DNA from: Brevundimonas denitrificans
GTDB taxonomy: Bacteria > Pseudomonadota > Alphaproteobacteria > Caulobacterales > Caulobacteraceae
NCBI RefSeq assembly: GCF_030160755.1
Contig: NZ_BSOY01000004.1
Location: 1 to 64,000, forward strand
Direction of reading: 5' to 3'
DNA length: 64,000 nt
The notes beneath the pieces were generated by a model. That model saw only the letters and a list, made by a program, of their open reading frames with translations, made no database searches and had not been told where the DNA came from. Positions 30,308-38,900 of the stretch are shown here, in pieces. The translations under genes were made by a program, and so were the position numbers. How positions within the stretch are numbered: position 1 is the stretch's first letter; every line of letters begins with the position of its first letter.

Positions 30308-30718
30308 ATGAAGATGAATCGCGCGGCCATCCGTTCAGCGTCGTCCTTCTTTCTGGTGACGTTTTCGACGGCCTTCCTGTTCACGCTCGGCGCGCGGCTG
30401 ACCGGCTGGTTCACGCGGGCGCCCGAGGTGGAGCCGGCGCAGCTGCAGTCGCTGGGCGTGGCCATCATGGTCGCCGTGGTCTGTCTGGCGGTCGGGGCGG
30501 GCATCCGTCGCCTGTCGGCCGGCGAGCTGCAGAGCGCGCTGCTGGGCGCTTCGGCGGTGCTGCTGTCGACGCCCTTGGCGCTGGCGGTGCTGACCGGCAA
30601 CTGGGAGCTTTCGACCGCCGCGGTCTCGGGCATGGGCGTGCTGACGCTGGCGCTCGGCTGGCTGGTGGCGCTGACCCGCAAGGGTCGTTTGCACGACGAG
30701 GATTCCGTTGATGGCTGA
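30308..30718 (+). CDS. Predicted membrane protein between nuoC and nuoD
   Basis: This 136-residue protein has a basic N terminus and about four hydrophobic helices (about 11-32, 45-62, 77-92, 105-122). It starts three bases after nuoC and overlaps nuoD by eight bases, so it is made together with complex I. I recognise no family. A role in complex I assembly is only a guess from position. Confidence 0.7.
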
Positions 30719-31970
30719 CGGCCACGCCCCCACGACGCCGATCGGCGCCACAGACATCTTCGACGACGGCCTGACCGACCACGCCCGGGCGCTGGACGAC
30801 CGGAAGTTCACGATCAATTTCGGCCCGCAACATCCGGCCGCGCACGGCGTGCTGCGTCTGGTGCTGGAGCTGGACGGCGAGCTGGTGACGCGCGTCGACC
30901 CGCACATCGGCCTGCTGCACCGCGGCACCGAAAAGCTGATGGAGGCCCGCACCTACCTCCAGAACGTGCCCTATCTGGATCGCCTCGACTATGTCGCGCC
31001 GATGAACCAGGAGCACGCCTTCTGCCTGGCCATCGAAAAGCTGCTGGGCGTGGACGTGCCATACCGGGCCCAGCTGATCCGGGTGCTGTATTCCGAGATC
31101 GGCCGCATCCTCTCGCACCTGCTGAACGTGACCACCCAGGCCATGGACGTCGGCGCCCTGACGCCGCCGCTGTGGGGCTTCGAGGAACGCGAGAAGCTGA
31201 TGGTGTTCTACGAGCGCGCCTCGGGCGCCCGTCTGCACGCCAACTATTTCCGGCCCGGCGGCGTCCATCAGGACCTGCCCAATGACCTGATCGACGACAT
31301 CGGCCGCTGGTGCCGCGAGTTCCCGGCGGCGCTGAAGGACATCGAGTCCCTCGTCACGGAGAACCGCATCTTCAAACAGCGCAACGTCGACATCGGCGTG
31401 GTGTCGAAACAGCAGGCGCTGGACTGGGGCTTCACCGGCGTGATGCTGCGCGGCTCGGACATTCCGTGGGACCTGCGCAAGTCGCAGCCCTACGAATGCT
31501 ACGCCGACCTCGAGTTCGACATCGCCGTCGGCAAGAACGGCGACTGCTGGGACCGCTATCTCTGCCGCATCGAGGAGATGAAGCAGTCGGTGCACATCAT
31601 GGAGCAGTGCATCCACAAGCTGCGCAACTGCCCCGGCGAGCCGGTGATGACCGAGAACAACAAGATCGTCCCGCCGCGGCGCGGTGAGATGAAGCGGTCG
31701 ATGGAAGCGCTCATCCACCACTTCAAACTCTACACCGAGGGCTTCCGCACGCCCGAGGGCGAAGTCTATGCGTCGGTCGAGGCGCCCAAGGGGGAGTTCG
31801 GCATCTATCTGGTCTCGGACGGCACCAACAAACCCTATCGGGTCAAGATTTCGGCGCCGGGCTTCCGCTCGCTGCAGGCCATGGACTGGATGAATCGCGG
31901 CCACATGCTGGCCGATGTGAGCGCCATCCTCGGCTCGCTCGACATCGTGTTCGGCGAGGTGGACCGATGA
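30711..31970 (+). CDS. nuoD: NADH-quinone oxidoreductase subunit D
   Basis: This 419-residue 49 kDa-type subunit forms the quinone pocket with Nuo[22 protein letters not shown] near residue 40 holds the conserved quinone-site His, and the C terminus ends IVFGEVDR as usual. ATG 30711 is preferred over an in-frame TTG just upstream. An acidic N-terminal extension of about 35 residues precedes the core. Confidence 0.97.
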
Positions 31971-32368
31971 GCGGCTTCGTCGTCGATCCGATTTTCACCC
32001 AGATGCAGGCGATCGCCTTCGCCGGCCTGCTGACCTTCGCTCTCGTCTTGCAGGTGGTGTTCTCACCGAAGCGGCGCGCGATCATGGGCGGGATGAAATT
32101 CGCCGTGGCCAGCGCCGTGGTCGCGGCCCCGGGGCTGGCGGGCGTGACGTTCGTGCGCGGCGCGTACCGTCTTGGCTATCTGGAAGAGGGGCGCGGCTTC
32201 TGGGAGGCCAATCTGCGTTCGCTCGTCTGGATGAGCGGCGCGATCTTCGCGGGCCAGATGGCCGTACGCTTTCTGCCGCCGATGTCGTGGCTGTCGCGTG
32301 ATCTGGGAAATGCCGGCCGCGCCGTGTGGAGCGAGCGCCTGGGCCGCTGGATGGGTAAGCAACAATGA
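31967..32368 (+). CDS. Uncharacterised protein between nuoD and nuoE
   Basis: This 133-residue protein has hydrophobic stretches at about 10-30 and 42-65 and a weaker one near 88-108, and an Arg-rich, probably cytoplasmic C terminus. ATG 31967 overlaps the nuoD stop and its stop overlaps the nuoE ATG (ATGA both times). No family recognised; its insertion in nuo suggests coexpression with complex I. Confidence 0.72.
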
Positions 32369-33027
32369 GCGTGCGTCGTCTCGCCAAGGTACAGCCGGCC
32401 TCGTTCGCCTTTTCGAAGGCGACGAAGGCAAAATGTGATTGGTGGATCGCCAAATATCCGGCCGACCGTCGCCAGTCGGCGGTGATCCCGATCCTGTGGC
32501 TGGTGCAGAAACAGGAGGGCTGGTGCCCGGAGCCGGCGCTGCGCGCCATCGCCGAGCTGCTGGGCATGCCCTACATCCGGGTGCTGGAGGTCGCGACCTT
32601 CTACACGATGTTCATGCTGGAGCCGGTCGGCTCGGCCGCCCTGATCCAGGTCTGCGGCACCACGCCCTGCATGCTGCGCGGCGCGGGCGAGCTGATGGAT
32701 GTCTGCAAGAAGAAGATCGGTCCCAAGGACGTGTTGAGCGCCGACGGCCGCTTCACATGGCAGGAGGTCGAATGCCTCGGCGCCTGCGCCAATGCGCCGA
32801 TGGCCCAGATCAACGACTACTATTTCGAGGACCTGACCGCCGACAGCATGGCGCAGATCATCGACGACTTCGCCGCCGGCAAGAAGCCGAAGCCGGGCAG
32901 CCGCATCGGCCGCACCAGTTCGGAGCCGGAAGGCGGGGCGCTGACCCTGACCGATCCGAAACTCTATGACGGCTCGGCCGCGAAGAAGATCAAGAAGCTG
33001 CCGAACTCCGATCCGGTGACGGCATGA
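32365..33027 (+). CDS. nuoE: NADH-quinone oxidoreductase subunit E
   Basis: This 220-residue 24 kDa-type subunit binds a [2Fe-2S] cluster in the NADH module. The ligands lie in CGTTPC and ECLGACANAP. The N-terminal helical part PADRRQSAVIPILWLVQKQ is typical. A Lys-rich C-terminal tail after about residue 170 is longer than in E. coli. It overlaps the following small gene by four bases. Confidence 0.96.
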   Translation: MSVRRLAKVQPASFAFSKATKAKCDWWIAKYPADRRQSAVIPILWLVQKQEGWCPEPALRAIAELLGMPYIRVLEVATFYTMFMLEPVGSAALIQVCGTTPCMLRGAGELMDVCKKKIGPKDVLSADGRFTWQEVECLGACANAPMAQINDYYFEDLTADSMAQIIDDFAAGKKPKPGSRIGRTSSEPEGGALTLTDPKLYDGSAAKKIKKLPNSDPVTA

Positions 33028-33290
33028 CCCGGCCTGATCTGACCGACGACGCCAAGGTCGCGGCCTATCGCTCGGAGCTGCGGCTTGTCGGGCGCAGCCA
33101 GCGTCTGGCCGGATTCGCCCTGGTCGTCGGCGGGGCGATCGCCGTCTGGGCCGCGGGCTACGCCGGCGGCGCAGGGCCGATGGTGCAGTGGGGCGGCTAT
33201 GCGGCGCTGGCCCTGGGCTGGGCCCTGATGCTCGCCGCCATCTTCCTGCGCACCCGCTATCACCGCCAACGCATGCGGGAGACGAACTGA
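33024..33290 (+). CDS. Small membrane protein between nuoE and nuoF
   Basis: This 88-residue protein has an N-terminal polar segment and two membrane helices (about 29-45 and 56-74), ending in a basic RTRYHRQRMRETN tail. ATG 33024 overlaps the nuoE stop; nuoF starts three bases after its stop. No family recognised. Confidence 0.7.
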   Translation: MTRPDLTDDAKVAAYRSELRLVGRSQRLAGFALVVGGAIAVWAAGYAGGAGPMVQWGGYAALALGWALMLAAIFLRTRYHRQRMRETN

Positions 33291-33293
33291 ACC

Positions 33294-34607
<1,314 letters not shown>

Positions 34608-34609
34608 GG

Positions 34610-35086
34610 ATGCGCGCCGCCGCCGTCATCGTCGTAACCGCTCTGACCCTCGCCGCCTGCGGTGAGCGGGCCGAGAAGGCTGCGCCGACTTCGGCAGACG
34701 CCGCGCCGGTGGCGCCCGCCGCCTCCGCGCCCCCGGCCACGCCCGTCGCCCTGACCGACGCCGATCTGCGCCGCGTCTGCCGCGCCGGACTGGCGGCCAT
34801 TCACGGGCAGGACGAGGAGTCGATCACGATCGACGCGCTGAACGGCCCCATCGTAAACGTCTCCTGGCGGGCTCCGGTCGACGGCGGACGCCGGCGGGCC
34901 CAGTGCCGGGTCGACGGCGATCTGGTCGTCTGGAAACCCGCGGATCGCACCAGCCCCATAGACGACCGCTGGATGAACCAGGCCGGCGATCCGGTGACGC
35001 GCTTCGTGCTCGACGGCGAGCGGGTGACGATCACCCAGACCCTGCCTGACAGCGGTGCGGTTGCAGACGTTCAGGGGCAGGGCTGA
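34610..35086 (+). CDS. Predicted lipoprotein between nuoF and nuoG
   Basis: This 158-residue protein has a signal with lipobox LAAC (Cys17), a Pro/Ala-rich linker (about 20-45), and a small domain with two more Cys (in RRVCRAG and AQCRVDG) that may pair in the periplasm. The start is two bases after the nuoF stop; its stop overlaps the next gene. No assigned function. Confidence 0.75.
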   Translation: MRAAAVIVVTALTLAACGERAEKAAPTSADAAPVAPAASAPPATPVALTDADLRRVCRAGLAAIHGQDEESITIDALNGPIVNVSWRAPVDGGRRRAQCRVDGDLVVWKPADRTSPIDDRWMNQAGDPVTRFVLDGERVTITQTLPDSGAVADVQGQG

Positions 35087-35541
35087 TGCGCGGCAAGGTC
35101 CTCAGTTACGACGACTACACCGGTTCCGGCCTGATCAGCGGCGACGACGGCGTGCGCTACACCTTCACGCGCGGCGGCCTGATGGGCGGAGCGCGCGAGG
35201 CGTTTCCGGGCTCGACGGTCGATTTCGAGATCGCGAACGGCACAGCCGCCAACATCTACATCATCGGCGGCGCGCCGCTGAACCTGTCGGGCGACAAGAA
35301 CCGGATCGTGGCCGCCTTGCTGGCCTTCGTTCTCGGCGGGATCGGCATCCACAAATTCTATCTCGGCAAGACGACGGCCGGGGTGCTGATGCTGCTGGGC
35401 GGTACGGTCGGCTGGATCACCTTCGGCTTCGTTCCGGCGCTCGTCTATCTGATCGCCTTCATCGAATTCATCATCTACCTGCTCAAGACCGACGGCGACT
35501 TCCACCGCGACTATGTCGCGGGGAACAAGTCCTGGTTCTGA
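35086..35541 (+). CDS. TM2 domain protein with cold-shock-like N-terminal segment
   Basis: This 151-residue protein has an N-terminal segment (about 1-50) resembling the OB fold of cold-shock proteins (MRGKVLSYDDYTGSGLI, then VDFEI). A TM2 domain follows, with two membrane helices (about 72-88 and 97-133 region) around GIGIHKFYLGK, and a polar tail. TM2 proteins are widespread but poorly understood. It overlaps the preceding lipoprotein stop and lies 36 bases before nuoG. Confidence 0.85.
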   Translation: MRGKVLSYDDYTGSGLISGDDGVRYTFTRGGLMGGAREAFPGSTVDFEIANGTAANIYIIGGAPLNLSGDKNRIVAALLAFVLGGIGIHKFYLGKTTAGVLMLLGGTVGWITFGFVPALVYLIAFIEFIIYLLKTDGDFHRDYVAGNKSWF

Positions 35542-35577
35542 TCCGGTTCGCTTAGAGAAACGCAGAGGTCGCGGCGA

Positions 35578-37623
35578 ATGCCCATCGCGAAAGTCAACGG
35601 CGTAGAGGTCGAGTTCGAGCCCGGGATGACCGTGCTCCAGGTCGCCGAACGCGCCGGACAGGAGATTCCGCGCTTCTGCTATCATGAGCGGCTGTCGATC
35701 GCCGGCAACTGCCGCATGTGCCTGGTCGAGGTGAAGCCCGGACCGCCGAAGCCGCAGGCTTCGTGCGCCCTGCCGGCCGCCGAGGGGCAGGAGATCTTCA
35801 CCGACACGCCGATGGTCAAGAAGGCCCGCGAAGGGGTGATGGAGTTCCTGCTCATCAACCACCCGCTGGACTGCCCGATCTGCGACCAGGGCGGCGAGTG
35901 CGACCTGCAGGACCAGGCCATGGGCTATGGCCGCGACGGTTCCCGCTATGCGGAGAACAAGCGCGCGGTCGAAGAAAAGAACATGGGTCCGACCATCAAG
36001 ACCTTCATGACGCGGTGCATCCAGTGCACCCGCTGCGTGCGGTTCGTGACGGAGGTGGCGGGCGTGCCGGACATCGGCATGATCTCGCGCGGCGAGGACG
36101 CCGAGATCACCACCTATCTGGAGAAGGCGGTCGACAGCGAGCTGTCGGGCAATGTCAACGACCTGTGCCCCGTCGGCGCACTGACCCACCGGCCGTGGCA
36201 GTACCACTATCGTCCGTGGGAGCTGAAGAAGACCGAGACCATCGACGTCATGGACGCGCTGGGATCGAACATTCGCGCCGACGCCAAGGGCGCCGAGGTG
36301 ATGCGCATCCTGCCGCGCGTGAACGAGGGCATCAACGAGGAGTGGCTGTCCGACATCAGCCGCTACGCCGTCGACGGCCTGCAGCGCCAGCGGCTGGACA
36401 AGCCGTATGTGCGCGAGAACGGCAAGCTGCGCGCGGCGTCGTGGGACGAGGCCCTCGGCATTGTGGCGGCGAAACTGAACGCCGCGGCTGCGGACCGGAT
36501 CGGCGTCATCGCCGGCGACCTCCAGGACGCGGAATCGATGAAGGCGGCGCTGGACCTGTTCCGGGCGCTGGGATCGGCCAATACCGACTGCCGTCAGGAC
36601 GGCTCTGCGCTGGGTTACGGCCCGCGTGAGGGCTGGCTGTTCAACTCGGGCCTCGCGGGCGTCGAGAACGCCGACGCCGTGCTGATCGTGGGCGCCAATC
36701 CGCGCACCGAGGCGCCGTTGCTGAACACCCGCCTGCGCAAGGCCTGGCTGGCCGGCAAGACCGAGATCGGCCTGATCGGCGAACAGGCCGACCTGACCTA
36801 TGACTACAGCTGGCTCGGCGCCGGCTCGAAGACCCTGGCCAAGCTGCCCAAGGCGGCTATGGACTTCCTGACCAAGGCCGAGCGGCCGGCGATCATCGTC
36901 GGCGCGGGCGCCGTGTCGGGCTCCGATGGCGCGGCCGTGCTGAACGCGCTCGGCGCGCTGGCGAAGAAGGTCGGCGTGGTCGCGGATGGCTGGAACGGTT
37001 TCAACGTGCTGCACAGCGCGGCGTCGCGGGTAGCCGGTCTCGACATGGGCTTCGTCCCGGGCGAGGGCGGCAAGACGGCGGCCGAGATGGCGGCCAAGGG
37101 CGCGCTGGATGTGCTGTTCCTGCTCGGCGCCGACGAGATCGACCTGTCGAAGTCCGGCGCCTTCCGCGTCTATCTGGGCAGCCACGGCGACCGCGGGGCG
37201 CACGGCGCGGACGTGATCCTGCCGGGCGCGGCCTACACCGAGAAGTCGGGCCTGTACGTCAATACCGAGGGTCGCGTGCAGATGGCCGAACGGGTCGTCT
37301 TCCCCAAGGGACAGGCCAAGGAAGACTGGGCTGTGCTGCGCGCCCTGTCGGCCATGGTCGGCCACACCCTGCCGTACGACACGCTTGACGCCCTGCGTTC
37401 GAAACTGATGGCGGACCATCCGACGTTTGGACGGATCGACTACCTGCCGGCGCCGGCGTCGTTCGATGTCGGTTCGCTGGGCAGGAAGGGCGATCTGGGC
37501 GACGCCAGCTTCGTGTCGTCCGTGCGCAACCCCTATCTGAACAACCCGATCACGCGCGCCAGCGTGACCATGGCCGAGCTGTCCGCCCTGCGGATCGCCC
37601 CGGTCGCGATGGCGGCGGAGTAA
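35578..37623 (+). CDS. nuoG: NADH-quinone oxidoreductase subunit G
   Basis: This 681-residue, 75 kDa-type subunit has an N-terminal ferredoxin-like domain with CYHERLSIAGNCRMCLVE, then [4Fe-4S] ligands in CPICDQGGECDLQD and CIQCTRCVRF. A molybdopterin-oxidoreductase-like C-terminal domain follows and lacks an obvious cofactor site, as in other NuoG. It follows a GAGGTCG site near ATG 35578. Confidence 0.97.
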   Translation: MPIAKVNGVEVEFEPGMTVLQVAERAGQEIPRFCYHERLSIAGNCRMCLVEVKPGPPKPQASCALPAAEGQEIFTDTPMVKKAREGVMEFLLINHPLDCPICDQGGECDLQDQAMGYGRDGSRYAENKRAVEEKNMGPTIKTFMTRCIQCTRCVRFVTEVAGVPDIGMISRGEDAEITTYLEKAVDSELSGNVNDLCPVGALTHRPWQYHYRPWELKKTETIDVMDALGSNIRADAKGAEVMRILPRVNEGINEEWLSDISRYAVDGLQRQRLDKPYVRENGKLRAASWDEALGIVAAKLNAAAADRIGVIAGDLQDAESMKAALDLFRALGSANTDCRQDGSALGYGPREGWLFNSGLAGVENADAVLIVGANPRTEAPLLNTRLRKAWLAGKTEIGLIGEQADLTYDYSWLGAGSKTLAKLPKAAMDFLTKAERPAIIVGAGAVSGSDGAAVLNALGALAKKVGVVADGWNGFNVLHSAASRVAGLDMGFVPGEGGKTAAEMAAKGALDVLFLLGADEIDLSKSGAFRVYLGSHGDRGAHGADVILPGAAYTEKSGLYVNTEGRVQMAERVVFPKGQAKEDWAVLRALSAMVGHTLPYDTLDALRSKLMADHPTFGRIDYLPAPASFDVGSLGRKGDLGDASFVSSVRNPYLNNPITRASVTMAELSALRIAPVAMAAE

Positions 37624-37629
37624 GGCGCG

Positions 37630-38694
37630 ATGGACTTCTGGACCACTCCTCTCGGCTGGACCCTCGCCACCGCCGGCGGCATCCTGCTCGTCACCGTCGG
37701 CATCCTGATCTCGCTGGCCTTCCTGCTGCTGGCCGACCGGAAGATCTGGGCCGGCGTGCAGATGCGCAAGGGCCCGAACGTCGTCGGGCCGTTCGGCCTG
37801 CTGCAGTCGTTCGCTGACTTCTTCAAGTTCGTGCTGAAGGAAATCATCGTGCCGGCCGGGGCCGACAAGGTGGTCTTCCTGCTGGCGCCGTTGCTGACCT
37901 TCATCCTCGCCTTTATCGCCTGGGCGGCCATTCCGTTCGCGCCGGGCTGGGTCATCTCCGACCTCAATGTCGGCATCCTGTACATCTTCGCGATCAGTTC
38001 GCTGGGCGTGTACGGCATCATCATGGGCGGCTGGGCTTCGAACTCGAAGTATCCGTTCCTCGGCTCGCTGCGGTCGGCTGCGCAGATGGTGTCCTATGAG
38101 GTCTCCATCGGTCTGGTGATCATCAACGTCATCCTGCTGGCCGGGTCGATGAACCTGACCTCGATCGTGACCCAGCAGCAGGGCATGTTCTGGAACTGGT
38201 TCGCTTTCGGCGGCGGGGCCGGGACCTGGCCGACCATCGCGGTGATGTTCCCGATGGCCATCATCTTCTTCGTCTCGGCCCTGGCCGAGACCAACCGCCC
38301 GCCGTTCGACCTGCCCGAAGCGGAGTCCGAGCTCGTGGCCGGCTATCAGGTCGAATACAGCTCGACGCCCTACCTGCTCTTCATGATCGGCGAATACGCC
38401 AACATCGTCTTCATGTGCGCCATGATCACCCTGCTGTTCTTCGGCGGGTGGAATCCGGGCGTGCCGCAGGACTGGCTGGACGCCCTGCCGGGCTGGCTGG
38501 AGCAGGCGATCTATCTGGTCACCTTCTTCGGCAAGACCGTGTTCTGGTTCTGCATGATCGCCCTCGTGAAGGCCTTCGTGCCCCGCTACCGCTATGACCA
38601 GCTGATGCGTCTGGGCTGGAAGATCTTCCTGCCGACCTCGCTCGTCTGCGTCGTCGTAGTCGCCGCCTGGCGCGTGTTCGCGGTGGGTTCATGA
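37630..38694 (+). CDS. nuoH: NADH-quinone oxidoreductase subunit H
   Basis: This 354-residue membrane subunit has eight helices and helps form the quinone channel. Family motifs are ERK/DRK-like [23 protein letters not shown] and the loop [22 protein letters not shown] with its conserved acidic residues. Six bases separate it from nuoG; its stop overlaps a small lipoprotein gene. Confidence 0.97.
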
Positions 38695-38900
38695 GCCGGA
38701 CCCTGACCCTCCTGCTGGCTGCCGCGACACTGTCGGCCTGCGCGCCTTACGAGCCCGAGCCCGTCTCGCCGTATCAGTGGCAGCAGCGGCAGGAACGTAT
38801 CGAGCGGCAGGAGGCCGAGCGCCTGCGCCGCTGCGAAACCATGGACCAACAGAGCGAGCGTTACGCCCGCGAGTGCGCGCGCACCGGAGCCAGCCAGTAA
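38691..38900 (+). CDS. Small lipoprotein between nuoH and nuoI
   Basis: This 69-residue protein has a signal with lipobox LSAC (Cys17), followed by a Pro-rich piece and a charged helix rich in Gln, Glu and Arg (about 30-60) with two further Cys. ATG 38691 overlaps the nuoH stop and its stop overlaps the nuoI start (TAATG). No family recognised. Confidence 0.65.

Follow-up and report, generated by a model that had tools for sequence, protein, structure and literature searches.

A TM2 membrane protein with a predicted cold-shock-type barrel, encoded between nuoF and nuoG in Brevundimonas denitrificans

The window, that is, the whole 64,000-nucleotide stretch of Brevundimonas denitrificans DNA that was analysed, contains a nuo operon in which nuoF and nuoG enclose a slot with two small genes. 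The upstream border of the slot is nuoF (33294..34607, + strand; Pfam Complex1_51K, E 2e-47, and NADH_4Fe-4S), and the downstream border is nuoG (35578..37623, +; Pfam Fer4_Nqo3, Fer4_NDSU1, Molybdopterin and NADH_dhqG_C). The first gene of the slot (34610..35086, +) encodes 158 aa with a lipoprotein-like N-terminus and reaches no Pfam family above cut-off. The second (35086..35541, +) begins with ATG and encodes 151 aa, in which an N-terminal module predicted to be a barrel precedes a TM2 membrane domain (hence barrel-TM2). The stop codon of the lipoprotein-like gene shares bases with this ATG in a TGATG overlap, and the barrel-TM2 gene is probably co-transcribed and translationally coupled. 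A preliminary description had placed the fusion inside the nuo operon, and the Pfam assignments of nuoF and nuoG on either side of the gene pair bear this out. Small genes on the + strand with no Pfam family above cut-off were also seen at the junctions nuoC-nuoD (30308-30718, 136 aa), nuoD-nuoE (31967-32368, 133 aa), nuoE-nuoF (33024-33290, 88 aa) and nuoH-nuoI (38691-38900, 69 aa, lipoprotein-like); nuoC was placed by eye.

The open reading frame at 35086-35541 and its translation, substitution rates and relatives show it to be a real gene. A scan of named genomes with two peptide patterns returned 123 relatives, the best 80 of which gave 78 loci (40 barrel-TM2 and 38 others). Three alignments were made: A1 with 17 hand-picked rows, A2 with 33 of the 40 TM2 loci plus the window protein, and A3, which adds 21 of the 38 others. 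The 33 relatives align over the entire protein, with 27 invariant columns and a Met-Arg-Gly start in most, and barrel-TM2 relatives are 144-163 residues long. Whole-gene dN/dS was 0.22-0.40 against all eight relatives tested, indicating purifying selection. Because of these ratios and the conservation across relatives, a chance reading frame in GC-rich DNA was ruled out. The 782-aa frame on the opposite strand (35071-37419) was taken as a shadow of the coding strand. A phage or plasmid origin was likewise rejected: seven of eight PHROGs rows covered the membrane part only, and the eighth was at chance level (E 0.47).

The membrane part begins after a linker at residues 64-69 (35275..35292, +), where pLDDT falls below 50 and length varies among relatives, as seen from gaps in A2. 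Residues 70-114 (35293..35427, +) match TM2 (PF05154) with E 7.6e-12 and 45.7 bits, against a curated cut-off of 27.9, and contain the motif G-I-G-I-H-K-F-Y-L-G; the same family is matched in 34/34 members of A2, and judged by these profile scores the window protein is a clear TM2 member. The remainder, residues 115-151 (35428..35538, +), was delimited from the model, hydropathy and invariant columns as a third hydrophobic helix and a C-terminal helix. Helices are modelled by AlphaFold2 at 73-85, 97-112 and 115-133, with the C-terminal helix at 136-145; E127 in helix 115-133, together with F139, Y143 and W150, is invariant in the 34 rows of A2. The preliminary description was thus right to name TM2, and the two helices that it assigned become three and a C-terminal helix in the model.

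Residues 1-63 (35086..35274, +) carry a signature consisting of a G-x-I-S-G-D-D-x-x-R-Y-x-F hairpin and V-D-F, and were analysed with AlphaFold, Foldseek, VIA-align and alignments. With an alignment of 55 sequences as input, AlphaFold2 gave a model of the whole protein with mean pLDDT 81.9 and pTM 0.51; over residues 1-60 pLDDT was about 92, dipping to 82 at 31-40, with strands at 2-9, 14-19, 24-28, 44-50 and 53-61. Foldseek filled its first 17 rows with cold-shock domains or proteins, the best of them at E 4.5e-4 and with a target TM-score of 0.83. The best VIA-align match was Cold shock protein C, with Z 12.2 and rmsd 0.9 A over 60 residues, and Z was 11.6 against both CspA and CspB. When aligned by hhalign with 19 alphaproteobacterial cold-shock domains (CSDs), a set that favours canonical CSDs in that these were the 19 of 30 CSD loci fitting a chosen motif, the module scored a probability of 88.8%; none of 20 column-shuffled controls exceeded 2.61%, and a reversed control gave 0.64%. 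Profile searches of the PDB matched 2kcm (E 7.2e-5, and 3e-4 with a second profile) and TmCsp (E 0.0011). The NCBIfam CspE and CspC models matched 9/34 and 8/34 relatives, respectively (best E 1.1e-4), and gave no match in the window protein. In the window protein, Pfam reported no family at cut-off for residues 1-63 and no CSD row up to E 10; in relatives CSD (PF00313) appeared at E 0.062 or worse in 4/34 and at E 0.054 or worse in 2/17, values that imply scores far below the curated cut-off of 27 bits. Since the model, Foldseek, VIA-align and sequence profiles agree, the OB-fold call is right, and residues 1-63 are predicted to be a five-stranded OB barrel of cold-shock topology. An N-terminal OB fold next to TM2 had been proposed from the sequence, with structure prediction of residues 1-60 suggested as its check; the AlphaFold2 barrel and its likeness to Cold shock protein C support that proposal.

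Among the 40 barrel-TM2 loci, which come from the best 80 of 123 relatives and are therefore those nearest to the window, 35 (not independent of one another) lie between an upstream nuoF and a downstream nuoG, all on one strand; when near-identical proteins were removed the count was 30/33. Records with the gene in this slot belong to Brevundimonas, Caulobacter, Asticcacaulis and other Caulobacterales or alphaproteobacterial MAGs, and to the Rhodobacteraceae Nereida and Jannaschia. At the other 5/40 loci, in a Hyphomonadaceae MAG (L054), Acetobacteraceae (L106-L108) and a Poribacteria MAG (L109), nuo genes were absent within 3 kb, and around two more divergent fusions (L125, L126) 1.5 kb of sequence gave no nuo match. 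Of 249 genomes sampled from the order, 68 had a TM2 match, and at least six (G000, G031, G059, G442, G474, G494) had it no more than 1 kb upstream of nuoG. The nuoF-nuoG slot itself was inspected in hand-chosen, non-random sets of genomes in which nuoG had been matched, 60 of 235 from the class and 40 of 244 from the order. Within the order the barrel-TM2 gene was present in 4/40 slots, all four known beforehand; a search for nuoF at L241, one of these slots, found none. Of the 60 slots belonging to other orders in the class, 0 contained the gene, and there the nuoF-nuoG gap was 50 bases or less in 52/60 (lengths approximate). The gene is thus an optional insertion, which most of the near relatives that were found carry at one fixed place, and a general complex I subunit of Alphaproteobacteria is rejected on the strength of the 60 slots outside the order. 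Pairwise distances of barrel-TM2 proteins over the 35 loci correlated with those of NuoF (rho 0.73, including NuoF distances of L057 that may come from the wrong one of its two nuoF copies) and NuoG (rho 0.55), with 0/500 permutations as high for either, in a test that leaves common ancestry inside one slot uncorrected. The protein trees used for this comparison differ in detail; a mainly vertical inheritance at the slot would be expected to give such a correlation.

The same N-terminal module is found on other proteins and in tandem arrays, so that the barrel is a movable module. It precedes DUF805 (by Pfam in the two proteins scanned, by eye in others) and, by eye, other membrane segments in L025 and L115, and it occurs on a protein of 106 residues (L119). 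In the alphaproteobacterial genome G400 the module is repeated five times in one open frame and five times in another. These two frames (L121/L133, 392 aa, and L131/L136, 414 aa) join their copies by Ala/Pro-rich linkers. In several genomes of the same genus, pairs of module genes lie about 0.7 kb apart (L008/L027, L009/L030, L017/L026, L023/L028), DUF805-like by eye. At E 1e-3 or better the module was matched in 18/385 class genomes, with a single match in the genome of the window itself, and at the 38 non-TM2 module loci from the best 80 of 123 relatives there were nuo matches at 0/38. Records outside Alphaproteobacteria with the module are the Poribacteria MAG (L109), Pseudanabaena (L097) and Aeromonas caviae, with a partial match in Acinetobacter. 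The L097 protein, in a record titled Pseudanabaena biceps, closely resembles, by eye, the one in a Brevundimonas MAG (L076), a likeness which suggests that the cyanobacterial record contains contaminating DNA. The Aeromonas caviae record (L281, 4001-4438) contains an unannotated full-length barrel-TM2 with 40% identity over its full length; by eye its neighbours are LysR regulator-like and ABC transporter-like genes, and no nuo genes were recognised by eye within 4 kb. That record is labelled a plasmid, and its size of 4.9 Mb suggests a chromosome filed as one.

Given this distribution, it is a serious possibility, if one that falls short of an even chance, that the protein does work unrelated to complex I, with the same module, at a nuoF-nuoG junction that tolerates insertions and where common descent keeps the gene. 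Patchy presence of the barrel-TM2 gene would fit such hitch-hiking, as would the fusions located away from nuo in other groups and the small genes at other nuo junctions; moreover, a lipoprotein-like gene resembling that of the window lies before nuoG in 15/20 same-genus genomes in the stretch examined. Set against it are the purifying selection on the gene and the constancy of the slot across Brevundimonas, Asticcacaulis, Caulobacter and two Rhodobacteraceae, despite the varying space around the gene. An accessory role in complex I is plausible, and the linkage to nuo genes in several lineages is what such a factor would show. Hitch-hiking is weighted nearly as likely, because the gene is present only patchily, further small genes occupy the junction and the fusion has non-nuo settings elsewhere.

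The preliminary description had further suggested a membrane-tethered RNA or DNA binder, which might for example hold nuo mRNA at the membrane, and had named conservation of the aromatic RNA-binding residues as a check. These sites were scored in 79 modules, 41 with TM2 (the window included) and 38 others, the relatives being drawn from the best 80 of 123. Most of this set had been found by two peptide patterns that cover the KWF Lys, Trp and second RNP1 sites, and a recount therefore used 49 modules that had come from BLAST, tblastn or profile searches; this set includes the five G400 copies and one from Aeromonas, and leaves out weak or duplicate rows (e.g., L001, L002, L011, L127). The strand-1 Trp site is non-aromatic in 79/79 modules of the pattern set and 48/49 of the recount, the first RNP1 aromatic site in 79/79 and 49/49, and the second in 79/79 and 45/49, so that the recount holds five exceptions at the three sites, four at the second RNP1 position and one at Trp. 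In the 79 modules the RNP2 His site is also never aromatic (Arg in 46/79), the KWF Lys is Leu throughout, and the Lys within the motif is lost in every case, six of the modules being gapped where the RNP1 Lys would stand. Over eight sites the modules keep one aromatic and the cold-shock proteins of the same genome five; in the three of these proteins compared, out of five CSD matches, the strand-1 Trp, RNP1 aromatics and RNP2 His site are all kept.

Two aromatic positions fared differently. The Phe that follows the strand-1 Trp is represented by Tyr or Phe in 79/79 modules of the pattern set and 40/49 of the recount, and when the MAFFT/hhalign register is used the RNP2 Phe persists in 79/79, with Phe in 47 and Tyr in 2 of the 49. 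Phe27 falls on the RNP2 Phe in those sequence alignments, and phmmer against TmCsp gives another register. With residues 1-29 placed ungapped on TmCsp, Tyr25 and Phe27 become core residues of strand 3, 26 and 28 are exposed, and the RNP2 Phe is not kept. Position 26 differs among modules, in many of which it is a charged residue (Asp, Glu, Lys, Arg), and positions 25 and 27 are nearly invariant; VIA-align against 1csp and 1g6p aligned all 61/61 model residues. The ungapped strand-3 register is probably the better one, since position 26 varies and is often charged and no residue is left unaligned by VIA-align. The aromatic check thus went largely against the proposal, with the Trp and RNP1 aromatics lost; on the other side, the Tyr/Phe after Trp is retained, as is the RNP2 Phe if the sequence alignments set the register. 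In the AtGRP2 cold-shock domain DNA binding requires each of W17, F26 and F37 (PMC11602973). Since the Trp and RNP1 aromatic sites are non-aromatic in nearly all modules, RNA or DNA binding by residues 1-63 is unlikely as far as their sequences indicate, and the binder that had been proposed is not supported. The cold-shock fold, the distant kinship with the NCBIfam CspC/CspE models, the retained aromatics and the Arg at the RNP2 His place would all favour a tethered binder, which is nonetheless improbable given that every one of the 79 modules has lost the Trp of strand 1, the two RNP1 aromatics and the Lys residues that precede the motifs and lie inside them. The net charge of the module, -5 to -1 in 79/79, points the same way as weak evidence only, because cold-shock proteins of the same genome are also negative (-1, -2 and -1). 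Least probable of all is a small-ligand or lipid sensor, in which an acidic hairpin (S18, G19, D20, D21, R24) would bind a metal or small molecule and signal to the membrane part, as might be read from the invariance of L6, G15, I17, S18, G19, D20, D21, R24, Y25, F27, G42 and D46 in 55/55 rows of A3 and of Glu127 inside helix 3 in 34/34, but that invariance comes partly from search patterns holding these residues, profile-found modules vary there, and a turn may be conserved for structural reasons.

The reading preferred here, held tentatively and at somewhat less than even confidence, is that the barrel is a membrane-anchored protein-contact module which, in nuo-linked lineages, serves as an optional, lineage-specific accessory or assembly factor of complex I. 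The TM2 anchor in the inner membrane would present the cold-shock-type OB barrel, in all likelihood to the cytosol, a placement favoured by the cold-shock ancestry, the lack by eye of a signal-peptide-like start and the basic residues before helix 1. The barrel would descend from nucleic-acid-binding cold-shock domains and have lost most of their exposed aromatic platform. It would most likely touch a protein partner through the conserved I-S-G-D-D-x-x-R-Y-x-F hairpin, which apart from its x positions is invariant in 55/55 A3 rows, partly by pattern selection; protein contact is the plain reading, as the stacking platform is mostly gone and the hairpin is the best conserved surface. In Caulobacteraceae and the two Rhodobacteraceae the most likely partner would be complex I or its assembly, although this link taken alone is to be regarded as a possibility to which rather less than an even chance is given. 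The fullest version of the proposal, in which a cold-shock domain lost its grip on nucleic acid, spread as a protein-contact module on unrelated anchors, and in its TM2 form became a dedicated complex I factor between nuoF and nuoG in Caulobacteraceae and relatives, is speculative and on balance unlikely. The analysis gives boundaries, a signature and a model for a family whose N-terminal module stayed below every Pfam cut-off in the scanned members. It also indicates a cold-shock fold that has probably ceased to bind nucleic acid, and it puts forward one small gene as a candidate for complex I assembly in certain Alphaproteobacteria. Should the link to complex I prove false, the case would still warn against inferring RNA binding from a cold-shock fold alone.

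No description of the barrel-TM2 fusion or of the module was found among the matches listed from open-licence literature on TM2, DUF805, membrane-anchored cold shock and nuo operons. The cold-shock-DUF1294 architecture was considered as the nearest to barrel-TM2 and set aside: DUF1294 was matched in 9/41 relatives, and the five that could be read had no cold-shock part before it. For complex I of Paracoccus, three supernumerary subunits are named in the portion of the published account used here, with no TM2 protein among them (PMC8115037). With the cold-shock proteins CspC (8xyf_B), CspE (3i2z_B), CspA (1mjc) and CspB (1csp) the window protein shares its barrel (Z 11.6-12.2, rmsd 0.9-1.3 over 60-61 residues, 25-27% identity), whereas it differs from the family PF00313 in being without the strand-1 Trp and RNP1 aromatics, in falling below the CSD cut-off and in its fusion to a membrane domain. 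It is therefore a cold-shock domain by fold and, by binding residues and Pfam cut-off, not a member in the working sense. The best sequence match among solved structures, the N-terminal OB domain of Shewanella oneidensis SO_1732 (2kcm), has the G-D-D-G turn in common with it and, as its title indicates, is likewise N-terminal in a longer protein; unlike the window module, it keeps K-Y-G-F-I and Y-F-L-H-F, and thus more of the RNP motifs. Among TM2 proteins (PF05154), L011 also has a soluble add-on before TM2, by eye a C-x2-C zinc ribbon-like one, whereas the add-on in the window protein is a cold-shock-type barrel. The module-DUF805 proteins (PF05656) of Brevundimonas and others carry the same N-terminal module, 43-55% identical over its length, and differ in the membrane domain to which it is joined.
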